Positions 17,902 through 28,825 of a DNA stretch of 64,000 bases are shown here, piece by piece. Numbering within the stretch: the stretch's first letter is position 1; every line of letters begins with the position of its first letter. Under the pieces are notes generated by a model. It did not search any database and was not told the DNA's origin. It saw only the letters and a program-made list of their open reading frames with translations. The translations under genes were made by a program, and so were the position numbers. Source of the stretch: Methanoculleus formosensis (GTDB lineage Archaea; Halobacteriota; Methanomicrobia; Methanomicrobiales; Methanoculleaceae); contig NZ_VHLL01000004.1 in assembly GCF_025384765.1 (NCBI RefSeq), positions 62,001-126,000 of the forward strand, written 5' to 3'.

Positions 17902-17930
17902 ATTCACGTGACTATTGTGAATATTGTGAA
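17902..17930. promoter_or_regulatory. Inverted and direct repeats in the divergent promoter (operator candidate)
   Basis: ATTCAC (17902-17907) and GTGAAT (17917-17922) form an inverted repeat with a 9-nt spacer, followed by a second GTGAA at 17926. The site sits between the divergent HhH-GPD-like and CARF-like regulator genes, just after the AT-rich TATA candidate CAATTAAAAA. It is a plausible binding site for the winged-helix domain of the regulator. Confidence 0.45.
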
Positions 17931-18786
17931 AGCTTCTGATCCGATCCGGCCTGCCAGAGCCGATGGCCTGAACGAGCGGGTTCACCTGATCCCGCTCGGC
18001 CACGAGATCGACCGGGCGGTAAAGCCGTTCAATACATACCGGGCCGAGCGTGCGTACGTCATCGTGGTTCCGGACAACGCCGACCTGGATAAGCAGATGC
18101 TGGAGAAGCAGCGGCACTATACGAAGAGAGTCTGTGAGGGGCTGCTGGCGGCGGGCGTCCGTCCCGAGGTCACCTACTGCAATATGTTCGATATCCTCGA
18201 TGTGCTCCGGGTCGTCTCCTCCCTGATTGTGAGAGAGAAGCGGCAGGGGAACGACGTCCTCATCAATATGTCGGCCTGCGGCAGGATGACGTCGGTGGCC
18301 GTCACCATGGCGGCGATGGTGCATGGGGTAACGGCATACTATGTGCATGCGGACCGCTATGCAACGGGCGACGATGCTTCGCTCGAGGTGGACCATGGTC
18401 TGAGCATCGTGGAGACCGGGCGGGTCGAACCCCTGTACAACTTCTCCATCATGATGCCGGACGCCGAGTGCCAGTTGCTGCTGTGCGAGCTCTACCGGCG
18501 GGGGCAGGGGATGACCAGCGAGGACCTCTTCGACTTTTTTCACAAGAAAGGGCTTGAAGGGTATGACGAATTGCCGGTCAAAAAGAAAAACAGATCTGGG
18601 GAGTACAAATCGGGCTCGAAGAACCGGGAACTCCTCAACAGGACGAACCGAAAATACCTGCATAAACTGGAAGCCGCAGGCTACATCACGCGCATCTGGA
18701 GCGGCAGGCGTTTTTCTGTTCACATCACCGATGCAGGGAGGTATATTGCCTGTGTGAGCGGTCTGCTTGGGGGTGATGCTGAATAA
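17926..18786 (+). CDS. CARF-like sensor / winged-helix regulator, HFX_2341 (DUF6293) family
   Basis: A protein of about 286 aa. The N-terminal half opens ERVHLIPLGHEIDRAVKPF and contains NMSACGRMTSVAVTMAA, a Rossmann-like CARF-type ligand pocket. The C-terminal 90 residues have wHTH character (LLLCELYRRGQGMTSEDLFD, then YLHKLEAAGYITRIWSG). This is the layout of the archaeal HFX_2341 regulators. CARF domains bind cyclic oligonucleotides or dinucleotides in CRISPR ancillary proteins, but no CRISPR array or cas gene is visible here. GTG codons at 17908 and 17917 are other possible starts; 17926 lies about 28 nt after the TATA-like stretch and would be leaderless. Confidence 0.72.
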   Translation: MKASDPIRPARADGLNERVHLIPLGHEIDRAVKPFNTYRAERAYVIVVPDNADLDKQMLEKQRHYTKRVCEGLLAAGVRPEVTYCNMFDILDVLRVVSSLIVREKRQGNDVLINMSACGRMTSVAVTMAAMVHGVTAYYVHADRYATGDDASLEVDHGLSIVETGRVEPLYNFSIMMPDAECQLLLCELYRRGQGMTSEDLFDFFHKKGLEGYDELPVKKKNRSGEYKSGSKNRELLNRTNRKYLHKLEAAGYITRIWSGRRFSVHITDAGRYIACVSGLLGGDAE

Positions 18787-18941: not shown

Positions 18942-19451
18942 TCAGGACATCGGTTCAGCAGAAGGACGCGCCAGGGTGAGAAAATCTACCCGGTCGAAAT
19001 CCCGGTCATTCGTGGCGAAATAGTCGATGTGGTACTTGCGTGCAGACGCAGCATGGAGAGCATCAGAGAAGAGCAGTCCATACTGTTGCGAGATAAGGAG
19101 CGCATCGCCCGGAAGATTCGAGGTTTCAAGGACCCTGAGATTGTACTCTTCCAGTATCTCTCTGGCCATGACGTATGGAGTGTTCAGATCGAGTAAGATC
19201 TCAGGGTATTTCTTGATGTAAGCAATCGCTTCCCGTGGCGAGAGATGCTTCTCCGTAAATAACTCCGTAAGGAGGGCTTTGTGGAAGAATTCGTCCAGGA
19301 CAGTGGCGTTGATATATCCCGTAATATCCCCTGCCTGTATCTTTTCAAGAAGCCTCTCACACGATAGAGAGAACCGCGTAGTGGTATAGGCGTAGAGGAG
19401 GATGTTGGTGTCAAGAAACACCGTTCCCTCTTCCAGATCAGCTATGTTCAT
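18942..19451 (-). CDS. PIN-domain ribonuclease toxin (VapC-like)
   Basis: A 169-aa PIN protein, longer than the usual 130-140 aa. The first acidic residue is in VFLDTNILLYAYT, others lie in VLDEFFHKALLT, LLFSDALHAASA and FATNDRDFDRVDF, giving the four-acid Mg2+ site of VapC RNases. It overlaps the upstream 61-aa antitoxin by one base (TGATG). VapC toxins cut tRNA or rRNA when the antitoxin is lost. The target of this one is unknown. Confidence 0.82.
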   Translation of the reverse strand: MNIADLEEGTVFLDTNILLYAYTTTRFSLSCERLLEKIQAGDITGYINATVLDEFFHKALLTELFTEKHLSPREAIAYIKKYPEILLDLNTPYVMAREILEEYNLRVLETSNLPGDALLISQQYGLLFSDALHAASARKYHIDYFATNDRDFDRVDFLTLARPSAEPMS

Positions 19452-21092: not shown

Positions 21093-22118
21093 TTACCTCC
21101 TCCCTGCCGGAGACTCGCTGCACGCGAGATCGCGAGAGATGCGCATCGCCATATCGACGAGCGCCGAGACCTCGCCGTCGGAGTCCGGGGGATGCGAGGG
21201 CAGGTTATCGCGCAGGATCGCATCCCGCTCGGCGTTGAAGCGCCGTTCCGTGATATCGCAGAACTCCTGCACCTGCTCCACTCTCCACACAGCCGGGACC
21301 ATATGCGTCGCGACGATGTGCGAGACGAAGCAGAGGGCATCGCAGGCCTCCTTCGCGAGATCGGGAGCGTGCGAGGGGTTGTGGAGAAGTATCGAGCGGT
21401 ATGCATCGTCCCACGCCAGGTATGCGTCGTAGAAGACCTCAAGCGCGGGCAGGGGGTACGCCGCGATGAAACTGTCTAAAACCTCCTCGATGGCGGCGAT
21501 CCGCTCCGCGTTCAGGGGATGGAGCACATTGCTAACCTCAGTCGAGAGCGGGAGGATGCTCGTGCAGAATGTGCGCTCGAAGCCGTCGGCGTGCAGGCCG
21601 GACTGTTCCAGATACATTCTCTCGCTGCGGTTCAACTGGAAGTACTCGAGAGGGATATCTTCTCCGTCTGAAAACTCCTTCCAGAGGCGGAAGTAGTGGG
21701 AAATCTCACTGATGAGATCCGTTTTCTTGAACTTCATCCACTGGAGCACCGACCACAGGAGAACTCGCTCGTAAGGTGTAAAGATCGTGAGATCTGCCTT
21801 GTTCTTGGGCCTGTATTCGTATGATTCGTAGGGGTTTATTCGGAAAGAACTGCCCGACACTCTCCTTCCCGTATGGGCATTTGCTGTTGGCGCCTTCACG
21901 TCGAAGTATGCGTTCGATTCGGACGTCAACTGGAACGCCGCAGCCTCGGCAGGCCCTTTCGGCATACGTATGTAGGTCGTCCCGCAGAGAGTTGTTCCTC
22001 GCTGGTTGTAGTAGATGAGGTCGACGAAGAAGATGAACTTCAGGAGTTTCGTCCGGCCGATGCGGCTGTCGTGCTCCACCGCATACAGCAACGCATTGAT
22101 CAACCTCTGTTTCTGCAT
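21093..22118 (-). CDS. Panacea (SocA/DUF4065)-domain protein, putative antitoxin
   Basis: A 341-aa protein. Residues 1-70 read LINALLYAVEHDSRIGRTKL, LKFIFFVDLIYYNQRG and TYIRMPKGPAEAAAF, the Panacea antitoxin fold (G-x-T-K-L-x-K-x-x-[YF]-F-x-D, then Y-x-x-x-x-x-G-P). The remaining 270 residues are helical with no motif I know. Panacea proteins neutralise diverse toxins in two-gene operons; a PIN-like partner directly downstream fits that scheme. ATG 22118 follows GAGGTGAGAGGG; the frame upstream to 22295 was rejected because it lacks a ribosome-binding site. Confidence 0.72.
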   Translation of the reverse strand: MQKQRLINALLYAVEHDSRIGRTKLLKFIFFVDLIYYNQRGTTLCGTTYIRMPKGPAEAAAFQLTSESNAYFDVKAPTANAHTGRRVSGSSFRINPYESYEYRPKNKADLTIFTPYERVLLWSVLQWMKFKKTDLISEISHYFRLWKEFSDGEDIPLEYFQLNRSERMYLEQSGLHADGFERTFCTSILPLSTEVSNVLHPLNAERIAAIEEVLDSFIAAYPLPALEVFYDAYLAWDDAYRSILLHNPSHAPDLAKEACDALCFVSHIVATHMVPAVWRVEQVQEFCDITERRFNAERDAILRDNLPSHPPDSDGEVSALVDMAMRISRDLACSESPAGRR

Positions 22119-22436
22119 CCCTCTCACCTCGACCTTGAAGCTTTCGCTATAACCCGGGAAAACAAGTCTGTATACCTGCGTATTACGGGTACTAAAAGAT
22201 AACCCTTTCTGAACACAGGAATACGAACGCGATTGACGACGGGCCGAAGGGTGTGACACTTCGGCGAGTTCGGGGCGCGGGTACCAGAGGTACATGTACA
22301 GATCGGGCAGGCCATCAAAGGCCAGGAATCCTTCCTCGATGCTTCCCGGACAGATCCGAGATCAAGTGAGTTTTGTCCCCCTTCGATGATGCACAAACTC
22401 CGTTCTGCAAAGAGGTGGCACAAAAACCGTACCGGC
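22119..22436. other. 318-bp gap upstream of the Panacea gene
   Basis: It holds the promoter region of the Panacea-PIN pair; TATA-like sequences lie near 22150-22200. A minus-strand stretch near 22255-22330 reads EEGFLAFDGLPDLYMYLWYP without a start or stop context and may be a gene relic. No complete gene is seen. Confidence 0.35.
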
Positions 22437-22958: not shown

Positions 22959-24722
22959 TCACCCCACAAACCGGTACTCCCCCTCCGGGACGAAGATCTC
23001 GAACCGGGCGCCCTCTCCCTCGACGCCGGTCTCCCGGATGGCGATCCCGGTGATCGCAAGGATCTCCCGGGTCAGGAACAACCCGAGCCCCGTGTTCTTC
23101 CCGAACCCCTTGCGGAAGATCTTCTCCTTCTCCGCGGCCGGGATACCCACGCCATCGTCGGTGTAGATGATCGTAAGACCGCCCGGAGCCCCGGCGGCGG
23201 AGAAAGACATCCGTGATATGCCTCCACCGTGCCGGACCGAGTTCTCCATGAGATTGTAAAAGACCTTCCCGATCAGGGGATCGGCATAGACCCGGAGCCC
23301 CGCAACCCCGGCATCCACCGTGATCCCGTCAAGCGGGAGCTCTCCGGCCGCCTGCCGGATCAGCATACCTGCATCGTGCCACTCGGCCTCCTTCACGCCG
23401 ATATCCTGGTAGAACCGGGTGAACTCGACCTGCCGCTGGATCGTTCTCGCGGCCTGCAACTCGTTCGCCACGTAGCGGACAAGAGTCGGGTCCGCGGGCA
23501 GGCGTCCCGCCTCAAGATCCATCTGCGTAATCTCCAGGTACCCGAGCAGCGCCGCGAGCTGGTTCAGGATGTCGTGCCGGGTGATGGACGAGAGGGTGTT
23601 GAGTTTCCTGTTGGCCTCGCGGAGCGCCTTCTCCGCCCGCATCCGTTCTGCGATCTCCACATCGCGCTCCGCCAGGAGTTCCCGGATCTTCCGGTACGTC
23701 CGGGCGTTATCGATGGCGAGCCCGCAGACCTCCGCCACGAACCGGCTGATGTCGAGGTAGTCATCGATCCGCTCCGGCACGGGGAGATCCTCGAGCAGGA
23801 GGAGCCCGGAACAGGTCGCCTCGTGCCGGATCTCGATCAGGAATCCGTCCTCCCCGTGCCGCCCGGGGGACCACCCCCTTTCCGTAAAGAACCGCTCCCG
23901 ATGCTCCGGGATATCGTAGTAACCGGGCGGGCGGCTGACGATCCTGCCTGTCTTCCCCTCGTCGACGAGCACAAACGCGATCCGGGCAGGGCCGAAGAGG
24001 ATAGTAAAGAGGTTGAGCATCTCCTCCACCACCGTCCCCTCGCTCTGGATCGCCGCAATCCTGCCGAGGATATCGATAGTCATCGCGTAGTCGGCGGATC
24101 TCCGGTTCACCACGGCCGAAGAGTCCCGGAAAACCTTTCTCTCGGCATCCAGGCGCCACTGGAGGTACTGGATCTCGATATACCGCCGGAGCGGCTCGAT
24201 ACCGACGAAAATTCGCTCCGTGGGTACCCCAAACTCCTCGCCGGCGGCTGCAAGGAGCCGGGGACTCTCCGGGTCGACGCCCGTATCGACGAGCACGATC
24301 TTCCTGACCGAACCGCACCGGATAGCCTCCGTCGCTTCCCCCACAAACCCGGGGGCTGCGGCATCTTCCTTCCACCGCGACAGCATACCCGGAACGAGCA
24401 TGAGCGCCCTCTCCCGGACGCAGGCATCGAAGAGAGGTTCCGGCAGGAGGACTTCCCGCATGAGGTCGGGAACCAGCACGGCAGGGGCAGGGCCCGGCAG
24501 GGCCGGGGGTTCGATCCCGCACCCGAGGATGCAGATCCGATCGCAGGTCTCCCGCAGGTTCAGGAAAGGGACCTCAATATCGTCCCCCCACGGCACCCTT
24601 CTCCCGCAGCAGGCAAGGGAAAAGGTCTCCGCGACGACGTCCGGGAACTCTCCGGGAGCAGCGATCGCCGCAACCTCCCGGCCCAGGTTCTCGCAGCAGA
24701 GAACCCCGAACTTCTTCATCAT
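22959..24722 (-). CDS. Histidine kinase with N-terminal DUF1638 and GAF domains
   Basis: A 587-aa protein. Residues 1-205 are DUF1638-like with characteristic Cys (KKFGVLCCENLG, SLACCGRR, RICILGCGIEP); DUF1638 proteins are usually separate and encoded beside corrinoid methyltransferases. A GAF-like region follows (about 220-370). The kinase part has the H-box SSITRHDILNQLAALLGYLE near residue 398, the N-box VFYNLMENSVRHGG, the G-boxes DDGVGIP and GKNTGLGLFL. Its ATG overlaps the stop of the UroD-like gene as ATGA. This fusion puts a corrinoid-methyltransferase-associated domain on a sensor kinase, suggesting that it senses corrinoid or methyl-group state. That function is inferred. No response regulator is adjacent. 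Confidence 0.8.
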   Translation of the reverse strand: MMKKFGVLCCENLGREVAAIAAPGEFPDVVAETFSLACCGRRVPWGDDIEVPFLNLRETCDRICILGCGIEPPALPGPAPAVLVPDLMREVLLPEPLFDACVRERALMLVPGMLSRWKEDAAAPGFVGEATEAIRCGSVRKIVLVDTGVDPESPRLLAAAGEEFGVPTERIFVGIEPLRRYIEIQYLQWRLDAERKVFRDSSAVVNRRSADYAMTIDILGRIAAIQSEGTVVEEMLNLFTILFGPARIAFVLVDEGKTGRIVSRPPGYYDIPEHRERFFTERGWSPGRHGEDGFLIEIRHEATCSGLLLLEDLPVPERIDDYLDISRFVAEVCGLAIDNARTYRKIRELLAERDVEIAERMRAEKALREANRKLNTLSSITRHDILNQLAALLGYLEITQMDLEAGRLPADPTLVRYVANELQAARTIQRQVEFTRFYQDIGVKEAEWHDAGMLIRQAAGELPLDGITVDAGVAGLRVYADPLIGKVFYNLMENSVRHGGGISRMSFSAAGAPGGLTIIYTDDGVGIPAAEKEKIFRKGFGKNTGLGLFLTREILAITGIAIRETGVEGEGARFEIFVPEGEYRFVG

Positions 24723-25756
24723 TCTATCGGGTACTCCCCCCACTTCCGCACGGCGGCCGATATCGCCAGGAGAACGCTCTCGGGAACCTGCCAGGGGATC
24801 TCGCCGTGGTTGTCGGAGAGGATGAACCCCCCGCCCGGCCCGGCGGCGGCGATCGCCTTCTTCACCTCCGCCTCCGCCTGCGCAGGCGTCCACCGGCGCA
24901 TCTCGATCGCGTTGAGGTTGCCGAGCACCGTGAGCCTGCCGGCACATTGCCGCTTCACGGCGGCGAGATCGTCGAAGGCGCTGACGCCGACGCCGATACT
25001 GCCGGTCCCGGCCAGGTCTTCGAGGACCGGGAGCACTCTCGCCGAGGCAAGGCTGGTTGCAACCCCGCCCCGTATCCGGGAGATGGTCCGTCCGGCCACG
25101 ATATGCCCTGTCCGGAGGTAGAGGTCCCGGGGGATCATGTCCGGCGAGGCAAGCGGGTCGGCATACGAGATGGCGGCGGCGCCCGCATCGATCTGGGCGT
25201 TCGCCCATTCAACGCAGAACTCCTCGTTTTTCGCCATCAGCGTCCGGAAGAGATCCGGTTCTTCGTAGAGGAGTTCGATGTAGGCACCAAACCCCATCTG
25301 GAGGATCGGGAGCGAGAAGGGAGAGAGCACCGAGCCTACGATAGGCACGTCGTCGCCGACCTCCCGTTTCAGCAATTCGATCGTCTCAAGGCCGAAGAGG
25401 AGGGAGGGGCTCTCCTCGACGGCCGGTACCGCGATGCTCTCGATATCCTCGGGCCGCCGGATCGGCGGGCGGCCGGCGTTGGGCGGGCCGTCGTCACGGA
25501 AGATTACCTCTCCACCCCACGCCTCGATCTCGGAGGCCGAGTGACAGAAGGGAGTGACGCAGTCGCCGCCGAACTTCGCGAGGAGACGCGTCTGGCCCCG
25601 GGCGACGTATTCCGGCTTTGAGAAATACTCCTTGATAGAGAGCCCGAGTTCCTTCGCCCCGTAGATGGTGAAGAGCAGGAAGAGCGGGACGCGATCGGGC
25701 TCTTCAAACCCCATCGTCACGGCCGTCCTCTCCGCCGGCGTCATCTCACGCGTCAT
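24719..25756 (-). CDS. UroD/MtaA-family protein lacking the usual zinc ligands
   Basis: A 345-aa TIM-barrel protein of the uroporphyrinogen decarboxylase/MtaA methyltransferase family (opening EMTPAERTAVTMGFEEPDRV; IVGSVLSPFSLPILQMGF; ending WQVPESVLLAISAAVRKWGE). In methyltransferases of this family a His-x-Cys pair and a later Cys bind the zinc that activates the thiol. Here the corresponding stretches read VATSLASARVLPVL and GFILSDNHGEIP, with no His-x-Cys and no late Cys. It is coupled by 4-nt overlaps to the corrinoid protein upstream and the kinase downstream. A methyl-corrinoid sensing or unusual transfer role is more likely than CoM methylation, but this is inference. Confidence 0.78.
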   Translation of the reverse strand: MTREMTPAERTAVTMGFEEPDRVPLFLLFTIYGAKELGLSIKEYFSKPEYVARGQTRLLAKFGGDCVTPFCHSASEIEAWGGEVIFRDDGPPNAGRPPIRRPEDIESIAVPAVEESPSLLFGLETIELLKREVGDDVPIVGSVLSPFSLPILQMGFGAYIELLYEEPDLFRTLMAKNEEFCVEWANAQIDAGAAAISYADPLASPDMIPRDLYLRTGHIVAGRTISRIRGGVATSLASARVLPVLEDLAGTGSIGVGVSAFDDLAAVKRQCAGRLTVLGNLNAIEMRRWTPAQAEAEVKKAIAAAGPGGGFILSDNHGEIPWQVPESVLLAISAAVRKWGEYPIE

Positions 25757-26427
25757 ATGGCCCCCGTCATCGCCCGCACGATTGCAAGGGTATCCGATGC
25801 CGTATACCCTACAGCATCAGCCCCGGTTTCCTGCCCGAGGCGGGGGTCGAACCTGAACGGCGCTCCCCCGACGATCACCCGGATCTCCGGCATCGCCTCT
25901 CTGATGCGGGCGACCGCCTCCTTCACCCTGAGCGCCGCGGGGAGCATAAGCGTGGATACGAGCAGGATCTCAACGCGGTCCCGGATCGCCCTCTCCACGA
26001 GCCCGTCGACCGTCACCCCCGAACCGTAATCGATCACCTCGTAGCCGCCCGACCGGAGCACGGCAAGGAGGATCTGTTTGCCCAGGGTATGGTGGTCTTC
26101 GAGGACCGAGACCGCGATCCGGGGTTGAGAGATCCGTTCGGGGCTGCCCGGCGGGAGCATCGTGCTGACGATCTCCTCGCAGACCCGCCCGCTCATGTAG
26201 ACCTGCGAAAGGGCGGCCTGCCCCTGCTCCCAGTCCCTCCCGATCTCCTCAAGAACAGGGACAACCAGGGTTTCGATGCAGGATATGGGGGAACTTGCAG
26301 CAGAGGCGTCTCGGAGGATCCTCCCTGCCCGTATCCGGTCGACGCCCAGCAATGCGTCTTTCAAGTCGCTCGCCGGGGTCTCCGGGGGCGGAACACTCTC
26401 CGGCGAATCCTGGATATCCGATCCCAT
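25753..26427 (-). CDS. Corrinoid (B12)-binding protein
   Basis: A 224-aa protein. The N-terminal half is the helical cap typical of MtaC/MtbC-type corrinoid proteins (VVPVLEEIGRDWEQGQAALS). The C-terminal half has the B12-binding fingerprint: LEDHHTLGKQILLAVL (Asp-x-His-x-x-Gly; the His is the lower Co ligand), VSTLMLPA and VIVGGAPFR. The start at 26427 follows CGGAG; the open frame to 26478 precedes the likely transcription start. It heads an operon with the UroD-like protein and the DUF1638 kinase. Confidence 0.85.
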   Translation of the reverse strand: MGSDIQDSPESVPPPETPASDLKDALLGVDRIRAGRILRDASAASSPISCIETLVVPVLEEIGRDWEQGQAALSQVYMSGRVCEEIVSTMLPPGSPERISQPRIAVSVLEDHHTLGKQILLAVLRSGGYEVIDYGSGVTVDGLVERAIRDRVEILLVSTLMLPAALRVKEAVARIREAMPEIRVIVGGAPFRFDPRLGQETGADAVGYTASDTLAIVRAMTGAI

Positions 26428-26563: not shown

Positions 26564-28825
26564 TTACGCCAGTTCGTGCCGCCGCAGGAACTCCCTGACC
26601 TGTCTTGACTCGACCCAGCCCCGGTCCAGCTGCAGGATATAACTGTTGATCCGGTCGACCTGCTCCCGGATCCTCCCCGTAGCCGCTCCATCGTCGATCA
26701 GCTCGGTCATGCCGAGGATCACCTGGAGCGGCTGGCGGATATGGTCGCCGAGGACCGCGAACTGCTCGATGTTCCGCTCGATCTGCTCGAACGCCTGCTG
26801 CCGGAGATGCTCGTTCTGTTTCCGGTCGGTGATGTCCCTGCCGACGACGTGAACACCGATCACCGACCGGTCGCGAACGATCGGCGACTCGTTCAGTTCG
26901 AGGCAGGTCACCGACCCGTCTTTGCGGCGGAACTCGATCTCGAGCCCTTCGACCGGCTCGCCACAGGAGATCTTCGCTCGCCCCTCCTCCCATGCCGGGA
27001 GCGACGAGGGGACGACGAAGTCCCGGCACCTCCTGCCGATGATCTCATCGGGAGCGTAGCCGAGGACGCGGGTCACCGCCGGGGAGATGTAGGCGATCCC
27101 GCCCTCGTGGTAGCAGGTGTAGATCATATCGAAACTCTGCTGCATGATCTCCCGGAACTGTGACTCGCTCTTCTCGAGGGAGTCCCACGCCTGGAACCGC
27201 TCCATCATGCTTCCGAGCCGCCTGGCGACGGTATCGAGCAGCGCCCGCTCTTCGGCAAGGAACGGCCCTTCGTCCCTCTCCGGCCTCTCGTGGAGGTAAC
27301 AGATCTCCACCATCCCGACCGTCTCCCCGAGGACGACGATAGGTGATGCCTGCCGCCAGGGCGTCTCCGCGAAGCGTTCCGTTGCAAACCGACACCCGTG
27401 CACCGTGATCCTCGCAACGGTATCCTCCGGATACTGCCAGCCGGTGGAGAGAACCCGGGCGACTTCAAGGAAGACCTCATCGAGTGAGGTCTCCGATCGC
27501 CGTTCGATGATCCGGGATATCTCATACAGGATCGAGAGTTCCTTCACCCGCTCGTTCAGGTCGTGCGTCCGCTTCCGCAGGGCGTCCTCCCCCCGCTTCT
27601 TCCCGGTGACGTCCCGCGCAATCGCCGCAACCCGGATGACGTTGCCCCGCTCGTCGGCGGCCGGGTAGAGGACGATGTCATACAGCCGCCCCTTCCATGC
27701 ATCCTCGAACCGTGCCGGTCGGCCCGACGCGACGGCCTCCTTGAGGTGTGCCGCGTACGCCGCCGCCTCATCCGCCGGGAAGAGCTGGAACAAGCTCCGG
27801 CCGAGGAGATCCTCCCGGCTGCGCGCAAATCGCTGTGTCGTCGTCTCGTTGATCTCGATGAGCCGGCCTTCCCTGTCGAGGAGAGCGATGATCTCGCTCG
27901 GGGCGTTCAGGAGCGCCCGGGCCGTCGCCTCGCTCTCCCGGAGTTCGTCCTCGGCACGCCTCCGGTCGGTGACGTCGTAGAGCTGCTCGACGATGAACGC
28001 CACCTCGCCCTTCTCGTCGAGGATCGGGCTTGAGCGGCACTCCAGGTACCGCCCGAGTTCGGGCACGAACTTCTCCACGACCTCCCGCTTCTTGCTCGCG
28101 ACCGCAAGCTCCGTCGCGCAGACCGAGCAGGGCCCCGTCCTCCCGATGAGGTCGTAGCACTTCCGCCCCTCCACCTCCTCCGGCGTCATCCCGAGCATCT
28201 CGTAGCCGGCGCGGTTGTAGCGCAGGATCGTCCTGTCCGGCAGCTGGACGCCGACGATGTCGCCGAGGTTCTCAAAGAGCCCCTCGAGCAGGGTGTTCGC
28301 ATCCGCGAGGCGGCGACGGGTTTGCTCCGCGTCGGTGACGTCCTGCCAGGTTACGACGGCGCCGGAGACGGCGCCATTCATGACGACCGGCGAAGCGGAT
28401 ACGACGACGTGGAGTTCCTCGCCGTCCGGGTCGTGGACGGCGTACCGGCAGGAGGAGAGCCGCTCTCCCCTGAGCGCCCGGCGCCCCGGGAGGTCGTCGG
28501 GGGGAACCGGTTCGCCGCCGGAGTCCCTGAGCGATACGCCGTTCCTCCCGAGTAGCGCCCGGGCTATCCGGTCCTCCTCGCCCGGGCCTGCCGTGATCAC
28601 CCCGCCGCCGGCATCGTAAACGATCCCCTGCCTGCCGGCGGCGGCAAGAATCGCATCGCGTTCCAGTTCTGCGCGAGCGGCACGGGCGCTAAGGCCACGG
28701 TTTTCATCGAGCAGGGCCTCGATGCCCGCCGCCAGCCTCTCCCGCGACCGGCGGTCAAGGGCTGAAGCGGCGTCCTCCAGAATCTCAAGAAGGTCGGCCG
28801 GTGATCCGTCTTGTGGGTTCTCCAT
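26564..28825 (-). CDS. Multi-PAS/GAF sensor protein with HisKA-like end but no ATPase domain
   Basis: A 753-aa soluble protein. Order: PAS (about 50-170), PAS with a Cys pair in RTGPCSVCATEL (190-310), PAS (310-430), GAF (about 450-590), PAS (600-710). It ends in a short helical module, EQIERNIEQFAVLGDHIRQP, LQVILGMTELIDD and LDRGWVESRQVREFLRRH. That module looks like a HisKA dimer helix with a candidate H (GDHIR) but stops where an HATPase domain should begin. There is no N, G1 or G2 box. The same end occurs in the PAS protein at 52312. It may act by dimerising with, or feeding, a true kinase such as the DUF1638 kinase nearby. Confidence 0.85.
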   Translation of the reverse strand: MENPQDGSPADLLEILEDAASALDRRSRERLAAGIEALLDENRGLSARAARAELERDAILAAAGRQGIVYDAGGGVITAGPGEEDRIARALLGRNGVSLRDSGGEPVPPDDLPGRRALRGERLSSCRYAVHDPDGEELHVVVSASPVVMNGAVSGAVVTWQDVTDAEQTRRRLADANTLLEGLFENLGDIVGVQLPDRTILRYNRAGYEMLGMTPEEVEGRKCYDLIGRTGPCSVCATELAVASKKREVVEKFVPELGRYLECRSSPILDEKGEVAFIVEQLYDVTDRRRAEDELRESEATARALLNAPSEIIALLDREGRLIEINETTTQRFARSREDLLGRSLFQLFPADEAAAYAAHLKEAVASGRPARFEDAWKGRLYDIVLYPAADERGNVIRVAAIARDVTGKKRGEDALRKRTHDLNERVKELSILYEISRIIERRSETSLDEVFLEVARVLSTGWQYPEDTVARITVHGCRFATERFAETPWRQASPIVVLGETVGMVEICYLHERPERDEGPFLAEERALLDTVARRLGSMMERFQAWDSLEKSESQFREIMQQSFDMIYTCYHEGGIAYISPAVTRVLGYAPDEIIGRRCRDFVVPSSLPAWEEGRAKISCGEPVEGLEIEFRRKDGSVTCLELNESPIVRDRSVIGVHVVGRDITDRKQNEHLRQQAFEQIERNIEQFAVLGDHIRQPLQVILGMTELIDDGAATGRIREQVDRINSYILQLDRGWVESRQVREFLRRHELA

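Follow-up and report, generated by a model that had tools for sequence, protein, structure and literature searches.

Three consecutive genes in the window (the whole 64-kb stretch of DNA analysed here), COR, URO and KIN, probably act together as the input module for signals in a cytosolic two-component pathway, or elsewhere in a c-di-GMP pathway, as judged from their sequence and conservation. They encode a corrinoid-binding protein, a zinc-less relative of the coenzyme M methyltransferase MtaA and a histidine kinase. All three ORFs lie on the minus strand, with the 4-nt overlaps already proposed at COR/URO and at URO/KIN, and their GC3 (0.79-0.84) is in keeping with genuine coding sequence. 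The features of the locus are as follows.

22959..24722, minus strand: KIN, DUF1638-GAF-histidine kinase, 587 aa (Pfam HATPase_c, 9.5e-13).
22983..23603, minus strand: kinase core of KIN, comprising the DHp helix and the HATPase domain (Pfam, invariant residues).
About 23574-23576, minus strand: H383 of KIN, in the DHp helix.
23688..24110, minus strand: GAF-fold domain of KIN, about residues 205-345 (AlphaFold2 model, PDB matches).
24138..24722, minus strand: DUF1638-like N-terminal domain of KIN, residues 1-195 (Pfam in relatives, hhalign).
24719..25756, minus strand: URO, zinc-less UroD/MtaA-like TIM-barrel protein, 345 aa (Pfam URO-D, PF01208, 9e-48).
24794..24817, minus strand: URO signature S314-D-N-H317-G-E-I-P321, at the site of the late zinc Cys (column counts, 97 sequences).
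25037..25054, minus strand: URO S235-L-A-S-A-R240, at the His-x-Cys zinc-ligand site of CoM methyltransferases (column counts, 97 sequences).
25753..26427, minus strand: COR, corrinoid-binding protein, 224 aa, with a cap (residues 21-88) and a B12-binding domain (residues 105-215) (Pfam B12-binding, PF02310, 8.6e-21; B12-binding_2, PF02607, 2.3e-11).
26080..26097, minus strand: B12 lower-ligand motif D111-H-H113-T-L-G116 (DHHTLG), COR residues 111-116.
26564..28825, minus strand: multi-PAS protein upstream of COR, with a C-terminal HisKA-like helix and no HATPase match (Pfam).

The multi-PAS protein is retained at 69% identity in G084 and G068, and other kinases or regulators take its place at other loci; it is a possible partner of the cassette, though not a conserved part of it. 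No response regulator was found within the 64-kb window. The same genome has 11 REC matches elsewhere, and in G001/G031 a receiver-like ORF, judged by eye, lies upstream of the cassette.

Another 16 Methanomicrobiales loci have the order COR, URO, third gene. Scanning GTDB genomes gave 316 relatives of URO, spread over many bacterial phyla, and in the 80 loci examined COR lies directly upstream of URO in 78, while the third gene carries a DUF1638 and/or a GAF-type domain in 72, several of the rest being at contig ends. In this genome search for the three-gene order, the trio is conserved. Because it recurs across phyla, the arrangement is, on this sequence evidence, far beyond chance; mis-called ORFs or chance clustering are ruled out by the coding composition and the conservation of the arrangement across phyla. 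Contamination of metagenomes is also excluded, since isolates and complete replicons carry the cassette, among them Geomesophilobacter sediminis (L093, with a GGDEF output), Desulfonema magnum (L129) and a plasmid of Azoarcus KH32C (L245). The distances of COR, URO and the GAF domain correlate (Mantel r 0.51-0.59, permutation maximum 0.16), a correlation that still contains the shared phylogeny, and the mean distance is lowest for URO (0.38), the most conserved member, rising to 0.52 in COR and 0.68 in GAF. Judged from record titles, most hosts are anaerobes or inhabit oxic-anoxic interfaces; many are anaerobic sediment archaea and sulfate reducers. The earlier note knew of no described system with this layout. 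We likewise found no description of a COR-URO-DUF1638/GAF system in the open-access literature searched. The layout is very widespread and not peculiar to one genome.

A structure prediction of URO was compared with MtaA, as had been suggested. The AlphaFold2 model (pLDDT 95.4) has the MtaA fold, with M. mazei MtaA (4ay7) as its best PDB match at a TM of 0.86-0.88. URO scores below the curated NCBIfam cut-offs for MtaA (79.8 of 400 bits), MtbA (57.9 of 600) and mtaA_cmuA (91.2 of 235), and it is not an equivalog-level HemE (TIGR01464, 40.5 of 303 bits). The HxC and the late Cys are present in 13 of 15 UroD-family reference sequences, and both zinc cysteines are absent from all 97 URO sequences. 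At the first site the window copy has S235-L-A237 in place of His-x-Cys and 85 of the 97 relatives have H-x-A, the first His being gone only from the clade of the window copy and a few others. At the second, an invariant His (H317) takes the place of the late Cys in 97/97, and the N, H, G, E, I and P of the SDNHGEIP signature are invariant in the same 97/97, in a GTDB scan partly seeded on this signature, together with 15 Methanomicrobiales sequences (A1) that were not so seeded. The reported lack of His-x-Cys and late Cys therefore stands for both cysteines, but the late one has been replaced by an invariant His and not simply lost. Because every member lacks the zinc ligands that thiol activation requires, URO is predicted to be a former corrinoid methyltransferase barrel unable to carry out this activation. 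In a tree of the UroD family the cassette sequences (55/55) group together on a long stem with no reference inside, at a node with a support value of 0.0; this separation from the references has no formal support and carries no statistical weight.

The B12 motif of COR is complete, as first read: besides the two Pfam matches, D111, H113, L115 and G116 are kept in 75/75 relatives, and the SxL and GG motifs in 76/76. The cap has a signature of its own, W66, S74-Q75 and Y77, against the F/Y...PH of catalytic corrinoid proteins, the invariant W66 standing where those proteins have F/Y. CarH, which is a single DNA-binding protein and whose cap reads Wx9EH, typically has a Trp in this region. COR has the same cap and B12-binding architecture and matches CarH at 1.5e-10, so the cassette could be imagined as a CarH-type sensor of light or adenosylcobalamin, in which URO would be a structural cap and the output would come from KIN or a GGDEF protein. 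We regard this as very improbable: Wx9EH is absent from COR, which reads W...S-Q-x-Y, Pfam matched no HTH DNA-binding domain, photolysis needs no MtaA-fold partner, and the many anaerobic sediment archaea and sulfate reducers among the hosts also speak against it.

KIN, whose H-box (TRHDIxN), N-box, G1, F and G2 residues are invariant in 17 orthologues, is by its motifs a histidine kinase with the phospho-acceptor His and the N, G1, F and G2 boxes intact. No transmembrane region is apparent by eye. Its N-terminal DUF1638, as identified in the earlier note, was recovered through its relatives. Alone, the domain of the window copy is too diverged and falls under the Pfam threshold. Pfam found DUF1638 (PF07796) in 44 of 47 KIN relatives at E 0.01 or better (best 1.9e-14); two relatives are individually above the cut-off, and the 70%-identical orthologue in G040 scores 24.9 bits. 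Profile-profile alignment with free DUF1638 proteins (hhalign) gave E 4e-7 when the archaeal set led by the window copy was used and 4e-14 with the full set. The next domain is modelled with a GAF fold (AlphaFold2 pLDDT 88.9), and the structures it matches in the PDB are GAF domains. About a dozen third genes in the 80-locus GTDB sample have no DUF1638 and retain the GAF domain, so DUF1638 cannot be the sole reader.

The output of the third gene varies between a histidine kinase, a hybrid kinase and a diguanylate cyclase (GGDEF). Among 47 third genes, HATPase was found in 38, GGDEF in 7, REC in 11 and DUF1638 in 44. In the five Desulfobacterota loci tested that have no DUF1638, the gene immediately upstream of COR encodes a hybrid kinase and overlaps COR or almost abuts it. 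Among the bacterial genes flanking the cassette, REC occurs in 26 of 57 and HATPase in 19 of 57, and no metabolic family recurs among the families listed. Because outputs are exchanged and the neighbours are mostly response regulators and kinases, COR, URO and the third gene appear to be a sensory input module and not a catabolic operon.

The cassette could also be imagined as an ordinary catabolic or biosynthetic methyltransferase system: COR and URO would then be the enzyme that transfers methyl groups, with KIN no more than its regulator, as the PocR kinase is in the mec cassette. URO belongs to the MtaA/CmuA fold and family, the B12 motif of COR is intact, a RamA-type activator occurs in 26 of 36 bacterial carriers, and in the mec cassette, too, a two-component system stands with a corrinoid protein and a protein of the MtaA/CmuA type (PMC9768040). 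Against this, the genes beside the cassette include no recurrent transporter, C1 gene or second methyltransferase, DUF1638 is fused to a kinase or cyclase instead of being free, the zinc ligands are lost in all URO sequences, and RamA is absent from the window's own genome (99%-complete) and from four other Methanomicrobiales carriers. We therefore consider an enzyme system unlikely. Strict dependence of the cassette on RamA is ruled out by the carriers without this type of corrinoid reactivator. The proposal of the earlier note, that methyltransfer parts are reused as a sensory system signalling through a kinase, gains support from the swapped outputs, the signalling neighbours, the loss of zinc ligands and the carriers that have no RamA.

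Methanol as the signal in general was not adopted. The Azoarcus KH32C copy lies in a methanol-oxidation island, between fae/fhcABCD and a PQQ methanol dehydrogenase, but such neighbours occur at no other locus in the sample, and Fae is present in only 7 of 47 carrier genomes, the methanotroph and Methanosarcinaceae ones. Most cassette hosts are not methylotrophs.

Starting from what is evident in the sequences, namely the genes and their domains, the intact B12 and kinase motifs, the loss of zinc ligands, the conservation of the trio and the exchange of outputs, we infer complex formation, corrinoid binding, a ligand and a direction of signalling as follows. COR would carry a corrinoid, and URO would dock on COR and present or bind a ligand. 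The likeliest candidates for this ligand are a small methyl donor and any other molecule acting on the cobalt by changing its oxidation state or upper axial ligand. DUF1638 and GAF of KIN would read the corrinoid state by docking on COR or COR-URO, this reading would change autophosphorylation at H383, and the phosphate would pass to a response regulator encoded elsewhere in the genome. Our best guess for the signal, plausible only, is a methyl donor or the redox or ligand state of the corrinoid. Tentatively, COR-URO could be a chemical antenna that puts a methyl or alkyl group from a specific environmental compound on the corrinoid, its methylation state being the signal; DUF1638-GAF would read this state and drive the kinase or diguanylate cyclase, in a widespread and undescribed class of sensor found in both Bacteria and Archaea. 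COR may be conserved through turnover, and COR-URO may thus have a low catalytic activity. In a sub-version, which seems less probable, corrinoid supply or Co(I)/Co(II) and not a methyl donor is sensed, with DUF1638 detecting the oxidation state in COR and signalling redox or B12 status. It would suit the hosts' mostly anaerobic or interface habitats, the action of DUF1638 together with RamA in reductive recharging and the common use of GAF domains as redox sensors; however, it leaves unexplained why the substrate barrel URO is the most conserved member and has an invariant active-site signature, and DUF1638 is dispensable in a subset of third genes.

Methylated and C1 compounds are a major currency of carbon in sediments, and to our knowledge little is known of how most microbes sense them. 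The presence of the cassette in several hundred bacterial and archaeal species points to an undescribed form of B12-based sensing, perhaps of one-carbon or methyl compounds. If true, this sensor class would have members in hundreds of species, with methanogens, methanotrophs, sulfate reducers and magnetotactic bacteria among them, DUF1638 would gain a testable role as a reader of corrinoid state, and many genes annotated 'uroporphyrinogen decarboxylase family protein' and 'cobalamin-dependent protein' would be accounted for. As carriers are in culture, the idea is directly testable.

Among known systems, the methylcobamide:CoM methyltransferases MtaA and MtbA of the UroD family have the same fold as URO and are likewise partnered with a corrinoid protein, but URO has neither H-x-C nor late Cys and hence no zinc site. 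COR shares the cap and B12-binding domain, DxHxxG, SxL and GG with the corrinoid proteins of methyltransferases (MtaC, MtbC, MtgC; TIGR02370), yet it is under all curated cut-offs (74.8 of 215.3 bits for the pyl_corrinoid/MtaC class) and differs in its cap residues. CarH and other B12 photoreceptors likewise use a corrinoid-binding protein in signalling, although CarH has no UroD partner and no kinase. Free DUF1638 proteins are partners of corrinoid proteins in the reductive recharging of B12 (PMC5764234; PMC12478193); the domain in P. inhibens PGA1_c13340 and R. pomeroyi SPO2162 is homologous and also tied to a corrinoid protein, whereas here it is fused to GAF and a kinase or cyclase. According to PMC6944256, the inputs of archaeal kinases are mostly unknown. 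MsmS and RdmS of Methanosarcina are archaeal kinases too, tied to methyl-sulfide metabolism; in the available parts of their descriptions (PMC6944256, PMC11784639) the input is heme- or thiol-based, without an H-box and with no corrinoid-plus-UroD input described, in contrast to the canonical phospho-acceptor His of KIN. In the mec cassette of anaerobic dichloromethane degraders a histidine kinase is also clustered with a corrinoid protein and a member of the MtaA/CmuA family, and one of MecG/MecH is probably a free DUF1638 protein. However, the kinase of mec has PocR, and its presumed role is the regulation of an enzyme system that comprises MTI, MTII and a transporter (PMC9768040), whereas here the corrinoid and UroD parts accompany the kinase alone.

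The trio lies on the minus strand of the window, in a genome of 2.6 Mb that is 99% complete and placed among the Methanomicrobiales. The three genes and the one preceding them are listed here with their Pfam domains:

25753-26427, minus strand: COR, the corrinoid protein, 224 aa, with cap and B12-binding domain both present
24719-25756, minus strand: URO, the zinc-less UroD/MtaA-like protein, 345 aa, a barrel of the URO-D family
22959-24722, minus strand: KIN, the DUF1638-GAF-histidine kinase, 587 aa, with HATPase and HisKA-like parts
26564-28825, minus strand: multi-PAS protein, 753 aa, 136 nt upstream of the trio, with a HisKA-like helix at its end and no match to HATPase

The 4-nt overlaps claimed by the earlier note were found at both junctions, COR/URO and URO/KIN. 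The multi-PAS protein is retained upstream of the cassette in two relatives (genomes G068 and G084) and is possibly a phospho-acceptor partner of KIN, or a kinase fragment. An OsmC protein lies downstream of the trio. The window also holds a closely spaced HFX_2341/Csa3-like regulator (17908-18786, plus strand; PF19810, PF22665), a small ORF, PIN-like by eye (18942-19451, minus strand), and a SocA/Panacea-domain protein (21093-22295, minus strand; PF13274), perhaps a defence or toxin-antitoxin patch.

The likeness of URO to MtaA extends to its predicted structure: the AlphaFold2 model (pLDDT 95.4) has M. mazei MtaA as its top solved match, with TM 0.86-0.88. Among 15 reference UroD-family sequences from further genomes in the phylum, the majority of them methylotrophic, 13 have H-[IVM]-C and the late Cys (in a GCG/SCG context in 12 and GCD in one); of the remaining two, one has HIC but no late Cys, and the other, HemE-like, has neither. 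By column counts, both zinc Cys are missing in all 97 cassette URO sequences. The first His is retained in 85 of the 97, and the others have Ser, Gly or Leu there; because this residue can be lost, the URO family as a whole cannot depend on a zinc site. The late-Cys position is an invariant His within D-N-H-G-E-I-P (97/97), partly by construction, since the DNHGEI motif formed part of the seed for the GTDB scan; the motif is present in 15/15 Methanomicrobiales sequences of an alignment (A1) that came from a whole-protein search. The window copy has lost His-x-Cys and the late Cys as first claimed, with Ser for the first His and His for the late Cys. In the UroD tree all 55 cassette sequences fall in one group, at a node without usable support.

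COR retains every B12-binding residue, in agreement with the full motif first noticed. Its cap signature, W66, S74-Q75 and Y77, is invariant or nearly so (n=76) and stands in place of the F/Y and P-H of catalytic corrinoid proteins; since the cap covers the upper corrin face, these changes would alter the upper-ligand environment. RamA-type activators are absent from the window's genome, from four further carriers among the Methanomicrobiales and, on the bacterial side, from 10 of 36 carriers, which is compatible with a slow or non-catalytic corrinoid in COR.

The N-terminal DUF1638 that the earlier note assigned to the kinase is borne out by its relatives, though the window copy alone stays below the Pfam call. 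Pfam calls the domain weakly in three KIN orthologues and almost nowhere else across 22 genomes, and in 44/47 GTDB relatives of the third gene (the gene after URO, in the position of KIN); profile comparison with free DUF1638 gave E 4e-7 for a set headed by the window copy and 4e-14 for a large set. A GAF-fold domain is predicted behind DUF1638. Three full-length KIN relatives (L065:5633-7399, L066:5907-7673 and L067:4996-6777; ~30% whole-protein identity) have neither COR nor URO adjoining; kinases of the DUF1638/GAF type may also occur on their own.

URO matches occur in 20 of 150 genomes of the order Methanomicrobiales. The three-gene order recurs in 16 Methanomicrobiales loci read in context besides the window, with COR immediately before URO and a kinase immediately after. 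Additional to these is a divergent locus of genome G069 (L068:4959-11898), where a RamA-like activator gene follows COR-URO and precedes a 1225-aa kinase; its URO still has a single His and a single Cys (HIA...CEIP) and may represent a transitional stage from enzyme to sensor. The GTDB scan yielded 316 URO relatives in Proteobacteria, Desulfobacterota, Chloroflexi, Nitrospirae, Spirochaetes and others. In the 80 best-scoring loci, a non-random sample, COR adjoins URO in 78, and the third gene carries DUF1638 and/or GAF in 72, several of the others stopping at a contig end. COR, URO and GAF distances correlate with r of 0.51-0.59, which may reflect either co-adaptation or shared ancestry.

In the GTDB relatives the C-terminal output of the third gene varies between a histidine kinase, a hybrid kinase and a GGDEF domain, the last for example in Geomesophilobacter sediminis (locus L093; Pfam GGDEF 2.1e-51, DUF1638 1.1e-8). 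About a dozen third genes without DUF1638, from Desulfobacterota and Nitrospirae among others, retain GAF, some with only 200-277 aa; in the five Desulfobacterota loci of this kind that were tested, the COR start is preceded by a PAS/hybrid kinase whose end lies at that start or at most ~20 nt from it. The short GAF proteins of L107, L122, L124, L132 and L154 share a C-x2-C...H-S-x-A-x-F-S-H-x-I-C-x2-C tail (ICSYCKKIR...FSHSICQECAKIHYPD), possibly a metal-binding adaptor domain; a Pfam search of the L107 protein gave no match to it. Among 57 flanking genes, 26 encode receiver domains and 19 HATPase, and no metabolic family is listed more than once. A sensory module is usually recognised by just this pattern: an input that stays constant while its outputs are exchanged, set among signalling genes.

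As to what is sensed, one cassette on a plasmid of Azoarcus sp. KH32C lies in a methylotrophy island, with fae/fhcABCD on one side and a PQQ methanol dehydrogenase on the other, and C1 sensing is plausible there. Because such genes adjoin no other cassette in the loci sampled and Fae is limited to 7 of 47 carrier genomes, C1 sensing is unproven as a general role; its main rival as the signal is redox or corrinoid status. Free DUF1638 acts with RamA in the reductive recharging of corrinoid proteins (PMC5764234; PMC12478193), which naturally suggests that the DUF1638 domain would dock on COR; as DUF1638 is dispensable in some cassettes, GAF must also be able to receive the signal. From sequence and prediction, the basis of the whole reading, we infer complex formation, ligand and signal direction as follows: a ligand or methyl donor would act on URO, which would set the state of COR, and DUF1638/GAF would receive this state and pass the signal to the kinase.

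The open-access papers searched yielded no description of the COR-URO-kinase trio, in line with the earlier note, which knew of no such system. The nearest ideas differ from it, as far as the portions of the sources consulted go: the kinase input of the mec cassette (PMC9768040) lacks the pair of corrinoid protein and UroD barrel, as does that of MsmS/RdmS, and CarH does not use corrinoid protein and UroD barrel as a kinase input. The cassette would thus join an ordinary output, two-component or c-di-GMP signalling, to an input of a new kind.
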